NCBI RefSeq assembly: GCF_001006305.1
Contig: NZ_LBHJ01000001.1
Span: 496,001 to 560,000 of the forward strand
Direction of reading: 5' to 3'
DNA: 64,000 nucleotides
Source of the DNA: Silvibacterium bohemicum
Lineage (GTDB): Bacteria; Acidobacteriota; Terriglobia; Terriglobales; Acidobacteriaceae
Positions within the stretch are counted from its first letter, which is position 1. Each line of letters opens with the position of its first letter. Of this stretch, positions 4,011 to 55,095 are shown one piece after another. A program made the translations under genes and the position numbers. The notes below the pieces were generated by a model. The model was not told the origin of the DNA. It did not search any database and saw only the letters and a list, made by a program, of their open reading frames with translations.

Positions 4011-5333
4011 ATGAAATCTGCTCTACGACTGCGCTCCTGCGCGGCTCTCGCCTTTGCTCTCCTGGTTGCCGGCGTCTCTCCCTCTTTTGCGGCAACTGTA
4101 ACTGGAAAAGTTACAGATAAAACGAACAACAAGGCCGCAGCCGGGGACGATGTGGTCCTGATCGGCTTCGCCCAGGGTATGCAGGAGGCGGGACGCACGA
4201 AAACCGACGCGACCGGCCACTACAGCATCGATGTGCCGGACAACGGGATGCACCTGATCCGCGTTGACCACCAGAAGGCTGCTTACTTCGAGCCGGTCCA
4301 GCCGGGAAAGACGAGCGTAGATATCGATGTCTACGACGTTTCGCCGAAGGTGGAAGGAGTCAGCACGGAAGCCGACGTGATGCGCATCGAGGCCGGGCCG
4401 CAGGGGATGCGGGTGATCGAGAATTTCTTCGTGAAGAACGAGTCGAATCCTCCGCGCACCCAGTTCAGCAAAGAGGCTTATCCCATTTATCTGCCGGCTG
4501 ACGCGAAGATTGAAGCCTCGGCGGCGATGGGGCCGGCGGGCATGCCGGTTTCGTCATCGCCGATGCCGACTGGCGAGAAGGGACGCTACGCCTTTGTCTT
4601 TCCCGTTCGTCCCGGCGAGACGCGCTTCCAGATCAGCTACACGTTAAGTTACAGTGGCAGTTACAAATTCACGCCGAAGCTGGCGCTGCCGACGCAGAAC
4701 CTGGCCATCATGCTGCCGAAGAGCATGAAGTTCGATGGCGGTCCGGCTTTTCAGGCGACCGACATCGATACCGCGACACAGACCTTTCTGGCCAAGAATG
4801 TGCAGCCATCGCAGGCTCTTGACTTCACCGTTTCCGGGGAAGGCGTGATGCCGCGCGACTCGCAGCAGCAGCAACAGCAGGCGGGGGATAGCTCCGGTGC
4901 GAACGCGATGCCACCTGCGGCGGGTGGTGGTCCGGCGAGCGCCGAGAGCGATACGCGCCCCGGCATCGGGCTGGGAGCTCCAATCGATACGCCCGATCCG
5001 CTGCAGAAATACAAGTGGTGGATCCTGAGCGGCCTGGCCCTGGTGCTGGTGATTGCCGCGGCGTTCTTTCTGCGCGGCAAGCCGGTTGAGACAGCGCCGG
5101 CTGCGCCTCTCCCGTCGCCGCTGGTGCGCACTCCCGAGGTTGCAGCTGCGTTGCCGGGACGCGTAACGGGCGAGCCACGCGGATCGCTGCTGGCTGCGCT
5201 GAAGGATGAACTCTTCTCGCTCGAGACGGAGAGGCTGGAAGGGAAGCTGTCGGAGGCGGAGTATCTGGAGCTGAAGTCCGCGTTCGAGGTGGTGCTGCGG
5301 CGGGCTCTCGCGCGTCAGACTACTGCGGTGTGA
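4011..5333 (+). CDS. Secreted carboxypeptidase-regulatory-like domain protein with C-terminal membrane anchor
   Basis: I place the start at the second ATG (4011), which gives a clean signal peptide ending in SPSFA and has GAGG seven bases upstream; an ATG at 3975 is the alternative. The 440-residue protein begins with a beta-sandwich of the carboxypeptidase-regulatory type (TVTGKVTDKTNNKAAAGDDVVL). A Q/A/G-rich linker follows at about residues 285-320, then one transmembrane helix (WWILSGLALVLVIAAAFFL) and a short cytoplasmic helical tail. It lies 44 bases after the ccmI-like gene and is probably in the ccm transcript. A role in cytochrome or envelope assembly is possible but not shown. I know of no defined function. 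Confidence 0.7.
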   Translation: MKSALRLRSCAALAFALLVAGVSPSFAATVTGKVTDKTNNKAAAGDDVVLIGFAQGMQEAGRTKTDATGHYSIDVPDNGMHLIRVDHQKAAYFEPVQPGKTSVDIDVYDVSPKVEGVSTEADVMRIEAGPQGMRVIENFFVKNESNPPRTQFSKEAYPIYLPADAKIEASAAMGPAGMPVSSSPMPTGEKGRYAFVFPVRPGETRFQISYTLSYSGSYKFTPKLALPTQNLAIMLPKSMKFDGGPAFQATDIDTATQTFLAKNVQPSQALDFTVSGEGVMPRDSQQQQQQAGDSSGANAMPPAAGGGPASAESDTRPGIGLGAPIDTPDPLQKYKWWILSGLALVLVIAAAFFLRGKPVETAPAAPLPSPLVRTPEVAAALPGRVTGEPRGSLLAALKDELFSLETERLEGKLSEAEYLELKSAFEVVLRRALARQTTAV

Positions 5334-5376: not shown

Positions 5377-5464
5377 CGTCATTCTCAGCGAAGTGAAGAA
5401 TCTCAGCGATGTTTGAGGCCGAGCATCGCTGAGATTCTTCCTCCCGTCGGTCGTCGGAATGACG
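5377..5464. repeat. Nested inverted-repeat element, copy 1
   Basis: The ends CGTCATTC (5377-5384) and GAATGACG (5457-5464) are inverted repeats. Inside them a perfect 14-bp stem GAATCTCAGCGATG / CATCGCTGAGATTC (5398-5411 and 5424-5437) encloses a 12-base loop. Related copies occur at 36311-36370 and 55005-55095. All three lie just after a plus-strand gene and before a convergent minus-strand gene. Confidence 0.85.
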
Positions 5465-34986: not shown

Positions 34987-36267
34987 ATGTCCATAGACCT
35001 GTTTCGACAGAGCCGGCGTGCATTTCTCCAGCGATCCGCTCTCGCGGCCGGTCTCTCACTGCAACAAACTCTTCTCCCGTCTCTTGGTTCGGCGAATGAT
35101 GGCGTCGGAAACCAGCTTTCTCCCTGGCAGCCGGGAACACTGGACATCCATCACATCAATACCGGGCGCGGAAACTCTTCGCTTGTGATTTGTCCCGACG
35201 GGACTTCCCTTTTGATCGATGCTGGTGCTTCGATGAGTGCTCTGAAGTTGCTAAATCCCGCGCGACCCAATGACACAAAACGGGCCGGCCAGTGGATCGG
35301 GCGCTATGTTTCGCGGCAGCTTCGCGCGACGGGGAAGAGCGAGGTCGATTGCGCTTTGACGACGCATCTTCATCCCGATCACGTCGGCGAAGTCGGGCCA
35401 TCCAGCCCCAAATCGTCATCGGGAGAATACTTACTGACGGGCATCGCAGATGTGGAAGAGGAGATACACATCCGCCGCCTCATTGATCGCGGATATCCCG
35501 AATATAGTTACCCGCAGCTGCCGCGCGATCCCTCGGCTCTTAACTATATTGCGTTTGCAAAATCTCTTGCCTCACGCGGAAGCAAGGTTGAGCGTGTCCA
35601 GGTGGGTCACTCCGGCCAGATTCGTCTTGAACATAATGCCGCGGGATTTCCAGCTTTCTCGATACGAACGATGGCGGCCAATGGTGAAGTCTGGACGGGG
35701 CACGGCGAGGAGACTGTTGCGCATTTTCCTGCGATTGCAGGCATGAAGCCGCCGGATTTTCCCTCGGAGAACAGCTGTTCCATTGCGTTGAAATTGAATT
35801 ACGGACGCTTCTCCTACTTCACCGGCGGCGACCTTACGTGCGACACCAACTATGGCCGCGATCCGTGGCGCGACATCGAGACGCCGGCCAGCCGTGCGGC
35901 CGGCCAGGTATCTGTTGCCACCGTCGATCATCATGGATACTTCGACGCGGCTGGGCCTGATTGTGTCCGCGCGCTGCAGCCGCGCGTCTGGATTCTGCAG
36001 GCGTGGCATGCCTCGCATCCGGCCATGTCAGTCCTGGCGAATCTTTACAGTACAGATTTATATAGCGGTTCGCGCGATGTCTTCGCCGTAGGCATGAAGG
36101 AAGAGGCTGCGCTTACTACCGCGCGCTTCTCGGACGCGATGAAGAGCCGCGATGGCCATGTGCTGGTGCGTGTGGCTGCGTCCGGCAGTGAGTATCAGGT
36201 CATCGTGCTTGATGACACGGACGAGAGCGACAGGGTTAGGGCGGTCTTTGGTCCTTACCCGGCGTGA
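34987..36267 (+). CDS. Tat-exported metallo-beta-lactamase-fold hydrolase
   Basis: ATG 34987 is taken, rather than TTG 34978. The 426-residue protein has a twin-arginine signal (QSRRAFLQRSALAAGLSL, residues 7-24), which implies export in folded form, probably with metal bound. The MBL-fold motif THLHPDHVGE near residue 126 and further ligands in YFTGGDLTC and TVDHHGYFD are present. This order resembles the hydrolase part of ComEC and related proteins. The substrate is unknown. A pronounced inverted-repeat element follows the stop. The gene stands alone between the M14 peptidase and a convergent phosphoesterase. Confidence 0.85.
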   Translation: MSIDLFRQSRRAFLQRSALAAGLSLQQTLLPSLGSANDGVGNQLSPWQPGTLDIHHINTGRGNSSLVICPDGTSLLIDAGASMSALKLLNPARPNDTKRAGQWIGRYVSRQLRATGKSEVDCALTTHLHPDHVGEVGPSSPKSSSGEYLLTGIADVEEEIHIRRLIDRGYPEYSYPQLPRDPSALNYIAFAKSLASRGSKVERVQVGHSGQIRLEHNAAGFPAFSIRTMAANGEVWTGHGEETVAHFPAIAGMKPPDFPSENSCSIALKLNYGRFSYFTGGDLTCDTNYGRDPWRDIETPASRAAGQVSVATVDHHGYFDAAGPDCVRALQPRVWILQAWHASHPAMSVLANLYSTDLYSGSRDVFAVGMKEEAALTTARFSDAMKSRDGHVLVRVAASGSEYQVIVLDDTDESDRVRAVFGPYPA

Positions 36268-36310
36268 CCCTGGCACGCGTGTTGTTCGCGTGTTCGGGCG
36301 GAAAGCGAAA

Positions 36311-36370
36311 AATCTCAGCGACGCTTTCTGCATCGCTGAGATTCTTCCTCCCTTTGGTCGTCAGAACGAA
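36311..36370. repeat. Nested inverted-repeat element, copy 2
   Basis: The arms AATCTCAGCGACG (36311-36323) and CATCGCTGAGATT (36331-36343) with one mismatch repeat the stem of copy 1, followed by TCTTCCTCC and TCGTCAGAACGA as in the other copies. The outer left end is not conserved. It sits between the MBL-fold gene and the convergent phosphoesterase gene. Confidence 0.8.
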
Positions 36371-42292: not shown

Positions 42293-42409
42293 GCTGTATC
42301 AGTCTAGAGCATTTTGCTATTAAGAAGTCATTTGCGAGATCGGATGAGTGCGGCTTTTCTTGATGAGAAGGCTGCACAGAGCGAACTTGATGAGAGACCT
42401 CTGTTGTGC

Positions 42410-42507
42410 GAGCATGGCATTCCTCAGTGGCTAAAGCCGCACTGATTTTGTGAGATTTACGTACGGCCTGAAGGCCGTACCTACCAAGGCCGAGACTTTG
42501 CCAGCAA
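42410..42507. repeat. Dispersed repeat family 3, copy A
   Basis: This 98-base segment shares long runs with 45812-45912, including CCTCAGTGGCTAAAGCCGCA and TTTACGTACGGCCTGAAG. It contains the hairpin GTACGGCC-TGAA-GGCCGTAC (42461-42480). It lies in the 483-base gap between merC and the patatin gene; in the remaining gap I see nothing else, although an open frame reaches into it from the patatin gene. Confidence 0.8.
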
Positions 42508-42775
42508 CCTGGTAGAGCGACTCTCTTCGACTTGGCTTATAGGGAAAATGCTTTGGGCGGATTTTTTGCTTTCGCCAGTTGCCGATGCCTTTCCGGGCGG
42601 ACCGGTGAGACTGAAAACTTCGGTACCCGGTCTTTCTACTTTTCCCTTGACGGCTATGGGCCGTGCGCATGTTCAATGGTGCGCACCGCTCGGTTGGCAC
42701 TTTCTCCAAAGCGGCTCCTCCCTCGATCCCCGGGCAGCACCCAGGCGCGCGCTTCCTCGCGCCGGAAAGATCGAT

Positions 42776-44488: not shown

Positions 44489-45043
44489 ATGGAGTGCATG
44501 TCCGACATTTCACTCTATGACCGCGCCCGCCGCATCAAGCTCTTTCTCATGGACGTTGATGGCACTCTCACTGACGGCGGTGTCTGCCTCATCTCGCTGC
44601 CTGATGGCGGCGGCGTCGCCGAGATGAAGGTCTTTAACGCAGCCGACGGCGCGGGTCTGAAGCTGGCCCACATCATGGGCCTCAAGACCGGATTCATCAC
44701 CGGCCGCAAGTCGCCTGCGGTGCAGCAGCGCGCGAACGAGCTATCGGTTGACTATGTCTATCTAGGCCAGGCGACCAAGACCCAGGCCTGGGAAGAGTGC
44801 ATCCAGAAGGCGGGCGTGACCGAGGAAGAGACCGCCTACATGGGCGACGACCTTCCGGACATGCCGCTCGCGCAACGCGCCGGACTGGCCATCGCCGTCG
44901 CCAACGCTGTTCCCGAGCTCAAGGACGTCAGCCACTACGTGACGAAACTCGGCGGTGGACATGGCTCGGCGAGGGAAGTCATCGAGCTCATTTTGAAAGC
45001 GCAAGGGCGATGGGAAGAAGCGGTGCCGAAGGCTTTGGCGTAA
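44489..45043 (+). CDS. kdsC: 3-deoxy-D-manno-octulosonate 8-phosphate phosphatase (KdsC)
   Basis: KdsC releases phosphate from KDO-8-phosphate in the LPS core pathway. The 184-residue protein has the HAD motifs FLMDVDGTLTDG near residue 21, FITGRKS near 68, a lysine in ATKTQAW near 95 and YMGDDLPDMP near 112, without a large cap domain, as in KdsC. ATG 44489 and ATG 44498 are both possible; AGGA lies about eight bases before the first. The isomerase kdsD is 13.6 kb downstream at 58639, so the pathway genes are scattered. Confidence 0.92.
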   Translation: MECMSDISLYDRARRIKLFLMDVDGTLTDGGVCLISLPDGGGVAEMKVFNAADGAGLKLAHIMGLKTGFITGRKSPAVQQRANELSVDYVYLGQATKTQAWEECIQKAGVTEEETAYMGDDLPDMPLAQRAGLAIAVANAVPELKDVSHYVTKLGGGHGSAREVIELILKAQGRWEEAVPKALA

Positions 45044-45758: not shown

Positions 45759-45811
45759 CGAAGCGTCTGTCGACATGGGTCGGTTGAGATTGATTACGAA
45801 CACTGTTCGAC

Positions 45812-45912
45812 GAGCAGTGCATTTCCTCAGTGGCTAAAGCCGCATTCGTTTTGCTTGATTTACGTACGGCCTGAAGACCGTACCTTCCTAAGACCAAAAC
45901 TTTGTGAGCAAC
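45812..45912. repeat. Dispersed repeat family 3, copy B
   Basis: It matches 42410-42507 over most of its length and keeps the hairpin GTACGGCC-TGAA-GACCGTAC (45864-45883) with one mismatch in the stem. It lies between brnA and the terminator that faces aceE. Confidence 0.8.
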
Positions 45913-45946
45913 AAAAAGCGCCTGCCGAGGCAGGCGCTTTTTGTTG
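45909..45946. terminator. Strong bidirectional terminator between brnTA and aceE
   Basis: An 18-bp perfect stem with arms at 45909-45926 and 45929-45946 includes AAAAAGCGCCTGCC and its complement, so A and T runs flank a GC core on both sides. The apex is very tight (two unpaired bases), so the top pairs probably open. Confidence 0.9.
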
Positions 45947-45961
45947 GTATGGGATGAGGGC

Positions 45962-48967: not shown

Positions 48968-48995
48968 TCGAGCATGAAATTCGTGATTGCGCCGG

Positions 48996-49045
48996 CAAAC
49001 TGCAGGTCCTTCGACTCGCTTTGCTCGCTCAGGATGACAACTTCC
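48996..49045. repeat. Dispersed repeat family 2, copy B
   Basis: The segment CAAACTGCAGGTCCTTCGAC through CAGGATGACAACTTCC resembles copies A (9348) and C (62941). It lies 112 bases before ispD. Confidence 0.7.
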
Positions 49046-49156
49046 AAGTGGGAGCGTGAGATTCAACAGAACCATTGCTTATCGGGTCTACGCCTCCAGT
49101 GTTTTCGCTAGCCGCTTTTCAGCTACCCGGGCTTTAGCTGATATACTCCACTGTTC

Positions 49157-53531: not shown

Positions 53532-54998
53532 ATGTCACTCTCCAGCACACCTCGCGTCCGCATTGCCCCGTCGCCCACTGGGGATCCTCACGTCGGCACG
53601 GCCTACATTGGTCTCATCAATTTCCTCGTCGCCCGGCAGGGTGGTGGGAAATTCGTTCTCCGCATCGAGGACACCGACCGCACCCGCTTCGTTCCCACCT
53701 CCGAGCAGATGATCTTCGACGCCCTGCGCTGGATCGGGCTGTCCTGGGACGAGGGGCCTGATGTCGGCGGCCCATTCGGTCCCTATCGCCAATCGGAACG
53801 CACGGAGATCTATCAGAAGCATGCCGAGATCCTGCTTGCGAATGGCGCCGCGTACCGCTGCTTCTGCACCCCGGAAGAGCTGGAGGCATCGCGCAAGCAG
53901 CAGATCGCTGCCAAGATGGCTCCACGTTATGCCGGCATCTGCCGCAAGTTATCTGAAGCGACGATTGAGTCGAATCTCGCCGCAGGAAAGCCGTTCGTCA
54001 TTCGCATGAGGGTGCCGTGGGAAGGCTCGACGACCTTTCGCGACGAGCTGCGCGGGGATATCACCTTCGAGCACACGAATGTCGACGATCAGGTGCTGAT
54101 GAAGTCCGATGGTTTCCCGACGTATCACCTGGCCAACGTTGTCGACGATCACCTCATGCAGATCACCGACGTGATTCGTGCCGAGGAGTGGATCTCGTCC
54201 ACCCCGAAACACGTCCTGCTCTACCAGTTCTTCGGGTGGGAGCTGCCGCGCTTCTGGCATATGCCTCTGCTGCGCAATGCGGACAAGAGCAAGATTTCCA
54301 AGCGTAAGAACCCGGTTTCTTTGGTCTATTACCGCCAGGCAGGCTTCCTGCCCCAGACCGTCCTCAACTTCCTTGGCCTGATGGGCGGCGGGATGCCCGC
54401 GGATATCAATAACTCCACCGAGAAGTTCACTCTAGAGGAGATGATCCAGCACTTCAGCATCAAGAACATCCGTCTGGGCGGCCCGGTCTTCGATCTCACC
54501 AAGCTCAAGTGGCTTAACGGCGAATATCTCCGCGCGCTTTCTCCCGATGATTTCTATACGGCGCTGCGCTCGACTGTGCTTGCAGACGATTACCTCAAGG
54601 AGATTGCCGCGCTCATCCAGACCCGGATCGAGACTCTCGGCCAGTTCGGCGACCTTACCGGTTTCTTCTTTGCCGACGATATTCTTCCAGCTCCAGAGGT
54701 CTTCCTCCCTAAGAAGCGGACCCTCGAGGAGACGCTGGCCTTTGTGGTCGAGCAGCTCACTCTGCTCGAAGCCACCGACTGGACGACTGCGGCTCTTGAA
54801 CCCGCGCTCAAGCAGCTTGGCGACTCCCATGGCTGGCTGGTCAAGGAGAATTTCATGCTGCTGCGCGCGATCCTTACCGGCAGCACGATGAGCCCCCCGC
54901 TGCTGGAGAGCATGGTTGTCTTTGGCAAAGCTCGCACGCTGGACCGGTTGCGCCGCTTTCTCGATGCGCAAAAGAAATCGGCTGGGCAGAAGAAGTAG
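53532..54998 (+). CDS. gltX: Glutamyl-tRNA synthetase
   Basis: GltX charges tRNA-Glu. ATG 53532 is chosen over TTG 53514; neither has a strong Shine-Dalgarno site. The 488-residue class I enzyme has the HIGH-type motif as PSPTGDPHVGTAYIGL near residue 15 and the KMSKS-type motif as KSKISKRKNPVS near residue 250. The GDPHVGTA form is that of one common GltX branch. The zinc-type cysteine cluster is reduced (CFCTPEELE near residue 115). The C-terminal anticodon-binding part is present and the length is normal. It follows the toxin gene but is unlikely to be co-regulated with it. A nested inverted-repeat element follows. Confidence 0.95.
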   Translation: MSLSSTPRVRIAPSPTGDPHVGTAYIGLINFLVARQGGGKFVLRIEDTDRTRFVPTSEQMIFDALRWIGLSWDEGPDVGGPFGPYRQSERTEIYQKHAEILLANGAAYRCFCTPEELEASRKQQIAAKMAPRYAGICRKLSEATIESNLAAGKPFVIRMRVPWEGSTTFRDELRGDITFEHTNVDDQVLMKSDGFPTYHLANVVDDHLMQITDVIRAEEWISSTPKHVLLYQFFGWELPRFWHMPLLRNADKSKISKRKNPVSLVYYRQAGFLPQTVLNFLGLMGGGMPADINNSTEKFTLEEMIQHFSIKNIRLGGPVFDLTKLKWLNGEYLRALSPDDFYTALRSTVLADDYLKEIAALIQTRIETLGQFGDLTGFFFADDILPAPEVFLPKKRTLEETLAFVVEQLTLLEATDWTTAALEPALKQLGDSHGWLVKENFMLLRAILTGSTMSPPLLESMVVFGKARTLDRLRRFLDAQKKSAGQKK

Positions 54999-55004
54999 AG
55001 TGCT

Positions 55005-55095
55005 CGTCATTATTGAGCGCAGAGGGGAGAATCTCAGCGACGTTGTCGATCGGTCATCGTTGAGATTCTTCCTCGCGTTGCTCGTCAGAATGACG
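55005..55095. repeat. Nested inverted-repeat element, copy 3
   Basis: The ends CGTCATT (55005-55011) and AATGACG (55089-55095) are inverted repeats, with the inner stem GAATCTCAGCGACG / CATCGTTGAGATTC (55029-55042 and 55055-55068). It is between gltX and the convergent CBM9-like gene and matches copy 1 in layout. Confidence 0.85.

Follow-up and report, generated by a model that had tools for sequence, protein, structure and literature searches.

Paired CGTC-tagged hairpins at gene ends in Silvibacterium bohemicum and their likely GIY-YIG nuclease partners in relatives

The window analysed here, a stretch of 64,000 nucleotides from the genome of Silvibacterium bohemicum, holds three copies of a short element in which two different CGTC-tagged hairpin units are inverted around a central stem. 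We think it probable that this element is a REPIN-like inverted dimer of two CGTC-tagged unit types, non-autonomous, that would have spread as single-stranded DNA hairpins and now forms an old orphan population. In relatives, many small genes for GIY-YIG nucleases are flanked by GTC-tagged hairpins whose stems match and, judged from this gene neighbourhood, the likely partner there is such a gene and no classical transposase. The window copies and their parts are as follows, in covariance-model coordinates and with window position 1 equal to C1:496001:

5377 to 5464, plus strand: copy 1, full 88-nt element (covariance model 98.1 bits; convergent genes end at 5333 and 5544)
5377 to 5404, plus strand: left CGTC-tagged unit of copy 1, CGTCATTCTCAGCGAAGTGAAGAATCTC, a hairpin with a 2-bp/GAA tip
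5405 to 5430, plus strand: central stem-loop of copy 1, AGCGATG...CATCGCT, loop variable
5431 to 5464, minus strand: right CGTC-tagged unit of copy 1, reverse complement CGTCATTCCGACGACCGACGGGAGGAAGAATCTC
36291 to 36368, plus strand: copy 2, left unit replaced and right end decayed (53.8 bits; convergent genes end at 36267 and 36421)
36273 to 36301, plus strand: other repeat, CACGCGTGTTGTTCGCGTGTTCGGGCGG, fused to the left of copy 2
55005 to 55095, plus strand: copy 3, full element (66.3 bits; convergent genes end at 54998 and 55124)

The original prediction had described three copies with a common inner stem, and this is confirmed at all three sites, where the inner stem is near-perfect; the outer ends that copies 1 and 3 had been said to share are borne out in part, as the left end of copy 3 reads CGTCATTATTGAGC and CGTCATTC is therefore inexact there. 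Each copy lies after a plus-strand gene and before a minus-strand gene, as had been stated, with the same result from a gene caller trained on the genome (copy 3 starts 6 nt past a stop codon), and the reported lack of a transposase holds at the three sites. Eight convergent gene pairs are present in the window according to the gene caller list, three of them with the element. RNA folding gave z-scores of -6.5, -2.8 and -3.8 for copies 1, 2 and 3 on the plus strand and of -6.4, -5.2 and -4.2 on the minus strand, while a gapped inner-stem pattern was found at seven places in the genome versus none for a reversed control pattern. An Rfam search of the window returned no family above the gathering score. 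In four copies (window 36273-36301, C1:262805, C1:255125 and C11:31416) the left unit is swapped for one other palindromic repeat of the CACGCGCGATGTTCGCGTGTTGGGG type, which makes these copies a mosaic of two repeat families.

Across the genome, the element family comprises at least 69 distinct copies scoring at least 26 bits with a covariance model (R1) for which 15 copies were chosen; the number is a minimum, because 150 of 3568 first-look candidates were scored. The model gave 72 distinct places at E <=1, with opposite-strand matches on the same palindromes merged into one place, and the three matches below 26 bits were dropped before neighbours were counted. The consensus reads CGTCATTCTGAGCGNAGCGAAGAATCTCAGCGATG-N(about 10)-CATCGCTGAGATTCTTCCTCCC(G/T)TTGGTCGTCAGAATGACG, and the 30 best full-length copies have a mean pairwise identity of 75% (range 66-90%), so that the population looks old. 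Copy density is uneven between contigs: C24 (279 kb) carries 14 copies, or 50 per Mb, and C23 (131 kb) carries three, or 23 per Mb, with 5-13 copies per Mb on the remaining seven copy-bearing contigs.

Placement was assessed using the gene caller trained on the window and 56 further stretches, about 713 kb of the same genome. Sorted by neighbouring genes, 44 of the 69 copies are convergent, 22 tandem and three divergent, with none inside predicted genes, whilst the element-free gaps of the same stretches divide into 52 convergent, 273 tandem and 81 divergent. Were intergenic length alone to decide, 9.0 convergent copies would be expected (p 1.5e-22). Barring insertion close to gene starts raises this expectation: on element-free gaps it becomes 17.8 with 150 nt barred before each start (p 3.8e-11) and 28.8 with 300 nt barred (p 1.8e-4), and on all gaps less 88 nt per element it becomes 23.9 (p 8.1e-7) and 35.8 (p 0.032), respectively. 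Insertion tolerance thus accounts for much of the pattern, perhaps not for all of it: since the convergent excess persists with 300 nt before starts barred, simple tolerance may not suffice. The asymmetric element has no fixed orientation, with 23 plus and 21 minus copies at convergent sites and 10 in the same versus 12 in the opposite direction at tandem sites, and in 17 of the 22 tandem cases it lies closer to the stop of the upstream gene. The genome search and orientation count proposed with the original prediction therefore support its reading of small non-autonomous elements tolerated at such sites, as do the eight congeners and one syntenic congener site considered below; its stricter form, with convergent sites only, fails on the 22 tandem copies.

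The other reading offered at the outset, two-way transcription terminators that are kept for that purpose, has in our view rather little chance of being right. The element resembles bidirectional intrinsic terminators in its strong stem between convergent genes, and both the number of convergent copies and the short distance to the nearer predicted stop (median 25 nt) would suit such a role, as would the 17 of 69 copies that are terminator-like on one strand, compared to 18 of 207 mononucleotide-shuffled copies on at least one. However, it differs from them in lacking T tracts on both strands: none of the 69 copies satisfies the standard intrinsic-terminator rule (GC-rich stem plus T tract) on both strands, and so the genome-wide count gives the two-way claim no support. 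Terminator scans of the window sites gave no match at copy 1; at copy 2 the one stem detected was weak and lay upstream, and at copy 3 a marginal match stood at the right end; moreover, the tandem copies show no orientation preference and the eight congeners are without the element by the model. A different convergent gap in the window does hold an A tract, stem and T tract (45910-45947). This stem, AACAAAAAGCGCCTGCCGAGGCAGGCGCTTTTTGTTGG, lies between convergent genes ending at 45043 and 45962, was flagged on the minus strand by the terminator scan, and illustrates what a two-way terminator could look like.

In E. coli, REP and BIME sequences provide precedents for host use at gene ends, in 3' mRNA protection and in gyrase binding between convergent genes, and the element could likewise be a REP-type RNA or DNA site that is kept for such a use. 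We regard this as unlikely, although it would explain a convergent excess beyond simple tolerance (the 44 copies versus 17.8 with 150 nt barred on element-free gaps), and REPs elsewhere also lie near 3' ends according to excerpts of Di Nocera 2013 (PMC3733652). Against retention by the host stand the absence of the element from all eight congeners by the model, its absence at a gene pair that is syntenic in the congener G001, and its random orientation.

The preferred reading, a dimer of tagged hairpins, starts from the anatomy of the two units. The left unit has the form CGTC-ATTCT-GA-GC-GNA-GC-GA-AGAAT-CTC and the right unit, when read from the tag end, the form CGTC-ATTCT-GA-C-GA-CC-NAA-GG-GA-G-GA-AGAAT-CTC. 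In a 30-sequence alignment (A5, made up of the 30 full-length copies that score best among 44 listed, a choice that leans towards the model), 24 of 30 rows start with CGTC, on which we class the element as CGTC-tagged; among matches in the first 80 genome-contig loci, CATTCTGA is preceded by TGT in 77 of 95 cases and by CGT in nine. The unit hairpins have 94.2% of their cells paired in this alignment, a level reached in none of 500 shuffles, and show eight double-change cells versus 2.1 in shuffles (again 0 of 500), all of them in two pairs. Within the genome's own copies, a double change occurs in two of the 15 unit pairs (2 vs 1.5 in shuffles), which is no excess. In the long-hairpin alternative, double changes are confined to five of the 17 inner pairs and the 11 outer pairs have none; on the latter result, the long outer stem was rejected as a conserved structure. 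These data also bear on the reading of the copies as ordinary MITEs of a DDE transposase with terminal inverted repeats, which the inverted ends CGTCATTC/GAATGACG, the shortness of the element and its lack of a gene would allow. We find that reading hardly credible: each unit folds and covaries independently, the outer long-range stem lacks double changes, and the flank composition of 49 copies yields only a weak consensus, GCT before and G after.

When the isolated units were folded with standard DNA parameters, no support emerged (z 0.45 and -0.96), and the case for the hairpins consequently rests on covariation, above all across phyla, together with the stability reported in the literature for the GNA tip. 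Named genomes, scanned with seven tip bases left free, gave at least 119 stretches with 148 matches; among the matches listed, both inner Watson-Crick pairs form in 135, the GNA triloop is present in 117 and the two features coincide in 110, the inner stems being GC/GC in 84, AC/GT in 44, GT/AC in four and AT/AT in three. The matches listed span more than 15 phylum-level groups, although many come from metagenome bins and some will be chance matches. On these letters, the unit GTC-ATTCT-GA-2 bp-GNA-2 bp-GA-AGAAT is seen to recur from phylum to phylum with base changes that compensate each other. A scan of 297 genomes of the phylum with eleven free bases gave a unit match in 23, and the 129 places listed (up to 13 per genome) include 106 with GA...GA, 103 with GNA, 111 with both pairs and 86 with all three. 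In viral contigs, where the outer stem positions were left free, 43 GNA mini-hairpins are present among the matches listed, and in 42 of them the free positions of the stem are complementary, with four stem types, compared to a mean of 19.3 and a maximum of 28 in shuffles; a further 93 of the 136 matches listed are without a GNA mini-hairpin, chance matches included. The d(GCGNAGC) tip is described in excerpts of PMC4686876 as an extraordinarily stable DNA mini-hairpin, which suggests that the unit is read as single-stranded DNA. A unit variant occurs on contig C5 of G284, where GCGC-GAA-GCGG replaces GAGC-GAA-GCGA and one A.G mismatch thereby becomes a C-G pair; it is exact in eight of the 13 places listed, and a ninth differs by one loop base.

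Outside its own genome the family is patchy. The covariance model found the element in none of eight congeners (150 candidates scored in each), and exact units occur in eight of 41 genomes, including its own. The empty sites that the original prediction had suggested looking for in relatives were found in part: at C12:978029, a tandem site, G001 has the syntenic gene pair without the element, while no clean empty site was seen in congeners for copies 2 and 3, where a flanking gene was found but its neighbour differs. In the close pair G131/G199 (aligned regions 94.6-99.9% identical), the unit is at the same place in six of 10 region pairs; of the rest, one unit is exact in one genome only, within aligned sequence, one is uncovered and two are unaligned, so that no new jump was seen across the 10 region pairs. 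At L070 6090-6144, a hairpin repeat with many matches in congeners, CCCCACATCTCGATTTTGAGATGTGGG, adjoins a copy of the element, and this repeat is missing together with the element at the G001 site.

As to the enzyme, the copies might be GTAG-type REPs or REPINs, or TIR elements, moved by the Y1 (RAYT/TIRYT) transposases of the genome, which has two Y1 genes; PF01797 is indeed present in 32 of 41 genomes. We consider this very improbable. The tag is CGTC and not GTAG, and the left-type unit is found at none of the 31 Y1 loci examined (29 from relatives and two from the genome itself, out of 107 matches), with one 20-nt partial match to the right-unit core at L222. Hairpins with GTC followed by A number two near Y1 genes, versus 0.66 expected, and other tags dominate there. 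On these 31 of 107 loci, Y1 transposases were rejected as the source, as the unit does not flank them. The terminal inverted repeats of the genome's own Y1 genes, L038 (C4:849185) and L039 (C12:134161), are unrelated (GGTGCCCCATCC... and GCAGGGGCCTTCAGGCCCCTG), and the genes bring to mind the TIRYTs in excerpts of Di Nocera 2013 (PMC3733652).

A different partner gene emerges in relatives. Open reading frames of about 100 aa with units on both sides were found in Lutibacter, where both flanking units point the same way, and in two Pedobacter genomes, with a partial one in a Nitrospirae bin. The two unit-flanked frames that were searched for domains are both GIY-YIG nucleases (PF01541, E 2.6e-16 and 2.8e-17), and one more GIY-YIG match, in L122, lies 5.8 kb from a unit. 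Five other frames lie between units at three loci, one of them quinone-reductase-like and one topoisomerase-like by their letters; hence it is not the flanking by itself that is special, but the repeated occurrence of one family. The Pedobacter loci L196 and L160 hold tandem clusters of units, and L196 has intact as well as broken GIY-YIG copies.

This association was then counted with a PF01541 search of 40 chosen genomes, 31 with the unit and nine without, in which 84 of 90 loci, taken from the matches listed, gave a small GIY-YIG frame. The choice of 31 genomes for their unit may raise the number of ATTCTGA-type matches, not that of other stem types. Residues of the active-site type are kept in nearly all of these frames (Y 82/82, Y 82/84, R 83/84, H 83/84 and E 82/82). 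A strict unit of the GTCANNC(T/C)GA type lies within 300 bp of 19 of the 84 loci. When each of the 256 tags, made up of three bases and the base that opens the stem, was compared between -60 to 200 bp of the gene and sequence at least 500 bp away, which supplied the expectation, hairpins with GTC and A as the first stem base were the most enriched beside small GIY-YIG genes: 102 versus 13.0 expected, in 44 of the 84 loci. At 27 loci GTC-tagged hairpins stand on both sides of the gene; in 21 of them the 5-nt stems of the two sides are the same, compared to 12.3% between loci. The stem types vary by locus (ATTCT, ATGCT, ATACT, ATCCC, ATTGC, AGGTC and others), which would be in line with a separate repeat for each nuclease, and in genomes without an exact ATTCTGA-type unit, GTC-tagged hairpins of other stem types are present at four of nine small GIY-YIG loci.

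The association extends to close relatives of the window element. At L464 (G215, 119 exact units) the GIY-YIG gene has an exact unit on both sides; at L476 (G074, 21 units) one side has an exact unit and the right hairpin has a tip one base pair longer; at L463 (G231, 55 units) this longer-tip form, again by one base pair, stands on both sides. In the last two genomes, both of the same family as the window's, the arrangement is CGTCATTCTGAG…GAAGAATCTCAG–[GIY-YIG]–CTGAGATTCTTCG…CTCAGAATGACG, flanks whose letters look much like the ends of the window element. The longer right unit was matched, at up to three mismatches and among the loci compared, in loci of the window's own genome only.

Several results qualify the association. 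No GTC-tagged hairpin was found near 40 of the 84 small GIY-YIG loci, including the three of the congener G001, and among the matches listed the unit-rich genomes G013, G020, G024, G099, G131 and G284 gave no unit-flanked GIY-YIG gene. In the window's own genome no small GIY-YIG gene was found; its one PF01541 match is a 640-aa frame, presumably UvrC. Family copy number shows no plain correlation with the number of small GIY-YIG genes; it is the matched GIY-YIG type alone that goes with copy number (three genomes).

We propose that a GIY-YIG nuclease would cut single-stranded DNA at the tagged hairpin and thereby let the repeat spread, with proteins of the L463/L464/L476 type predicted to bind or cut single-stranded CGTCATTCTGAGCGNAGCGAAGAATCTC. 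The 88-bp element may derive from a gene-bearing element by loss of the gene, and its copies would persist mainly at the 3' ends of genes, because selection would remove insertions in genes and in 5' regions. By this account no enzyme acts in the window's genome now, as no small GIY-YIG gene was found there. More broadly, and with a confidence only somewhat better than even, we suggest that CGTC/TGTC REPs across phyla descend, as non-autonomous offspring, from small GIY-YIG genes that lie between matched GTC-tagged hairpins ('GIY-YIG REPtrons'). REPs would then have two enzymatic origins, these nucleases and the RAYTs, the GNA triloop would mark recognition of single-stranded DNA, and the window's genome would be a relic after loss of the nuclease.

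GIY-YIG nucleases of the Ssn type (Nature Communications 2025) reportedly cut single-stranded DNA at repeated sites in Neisseria, and the NTS target repeats of Ssn may be identical with CGTC repeats. The system described here is like Ssn/NTS in its small GIY-YIG proteins and repeated target sequences, the genes of relatives being flanked by the repeat (L464, L476, L463), and unlike it in that no small nuclease gene was found in the window's genome and cleavage at the unit is a prediction. The enzyme class is probably that of Ssn; if Ssn does comprise nucleases cutting single-stranded DNA at repeats, then the enzyme class has been described before and systems of this kind are not new. We know of no repeat context for UPF0213 proteins. 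The Pedobacter protein is matched by sequence to UPF0213 GIY-YIG entries (PDB 1zg2 and 1ywl, E 4e-6 and 0.018), which are named hypothetical proteins.

Among described repeats, the closest are the CGTC-tagged REPs of Di Nocera 2013 (PMC3733652), which according to excerpts of that paper apparently have no dedicated transposase and of which the Neisseria CGTC-1 repeats are dRS3. As excerpted, they share with the window element a CGTC tag outside a short hairpin, a stem starting with A-T pairs, inverted dimers, intergenic position with convergent or unidirectional neighbours, and no flanking Y1 transposase. However, the described stems of 8-9 bp with loops of 4-5 nt contrast with 5 bp, a tandem GA, 2 bp and a GNA triloop here, their tail is mostly CCA where that of the element is CTC in most rows, and the element is a heterodimer whose right unit is the longer; Acidobacteria are not among the five phyla given for CGTC repeats in the same excerpts. 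As the stem begins A-T, T-A and the architecture differs, we place the element as a relative of the CGTC REPs outside the four described families. Compared to REPINs and BIMEs with RAYTs, as excerpted from PMC3116915, PMC2817692 and PMC6006769, it is similar in being an inverted dimer of tagged hairpins that is non-autonomous, present in many copies and found at gene ends, and differs in its CGTC tag without GTAG and in the gene associated with it in relatives, a GIY-YIG nuclease and no Y1 transposase. The string ATTCTGAGC is absent from the main text, as far as excerpted, of a 2025 REP survey (PMC12306157). In the open literature searched, a scope that leaves most subscription and non-CC-BY papers outside, GIY-YIG and 'repetitive extragenic palindromic' were not linked, and searches with the unit letter strings returned, among the matches listed, titles on unrelated subjects.

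REPs are common bacterial repeats: those with GTAG have the RAYT, and those with CGTC were reported without an enzyme in 2013. What is new here is the connection of CGTC REPs with GIY-YIG genes across phyla, along with the GNA triloop at the tip and the orphan status of the family. In several phyla, GTC-tagged hairpins are linked to a small GIY-YIG nuclease by the specificity of the tag and by the matching of stems, and the same link reaches close relatives of the window element within its own bacterial family, which offers a natural series from nuclease present through nuclease not found to repeats absent. Cutting of the hairpins, if true, would explain both the spread of the repeats and why their tips are DNA mini-hairpins.

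Two further repeats are present in the window. An interspersed repeat of about 100-130 bp lies at 42387-42513 and 45782-45916, contains CCTCAGTGGCTAAAGCCGC and TACGGCCTGAAG.CCGTACCT, and has several further copies in the genome. On the minus strand at 48970-49075 lies a repeat with a GTCATCCTGAGCG...GTCGAAGGACC unit. This repeat likewise recurs at several other places in the genome and resembles a further GTC-tagged unit.
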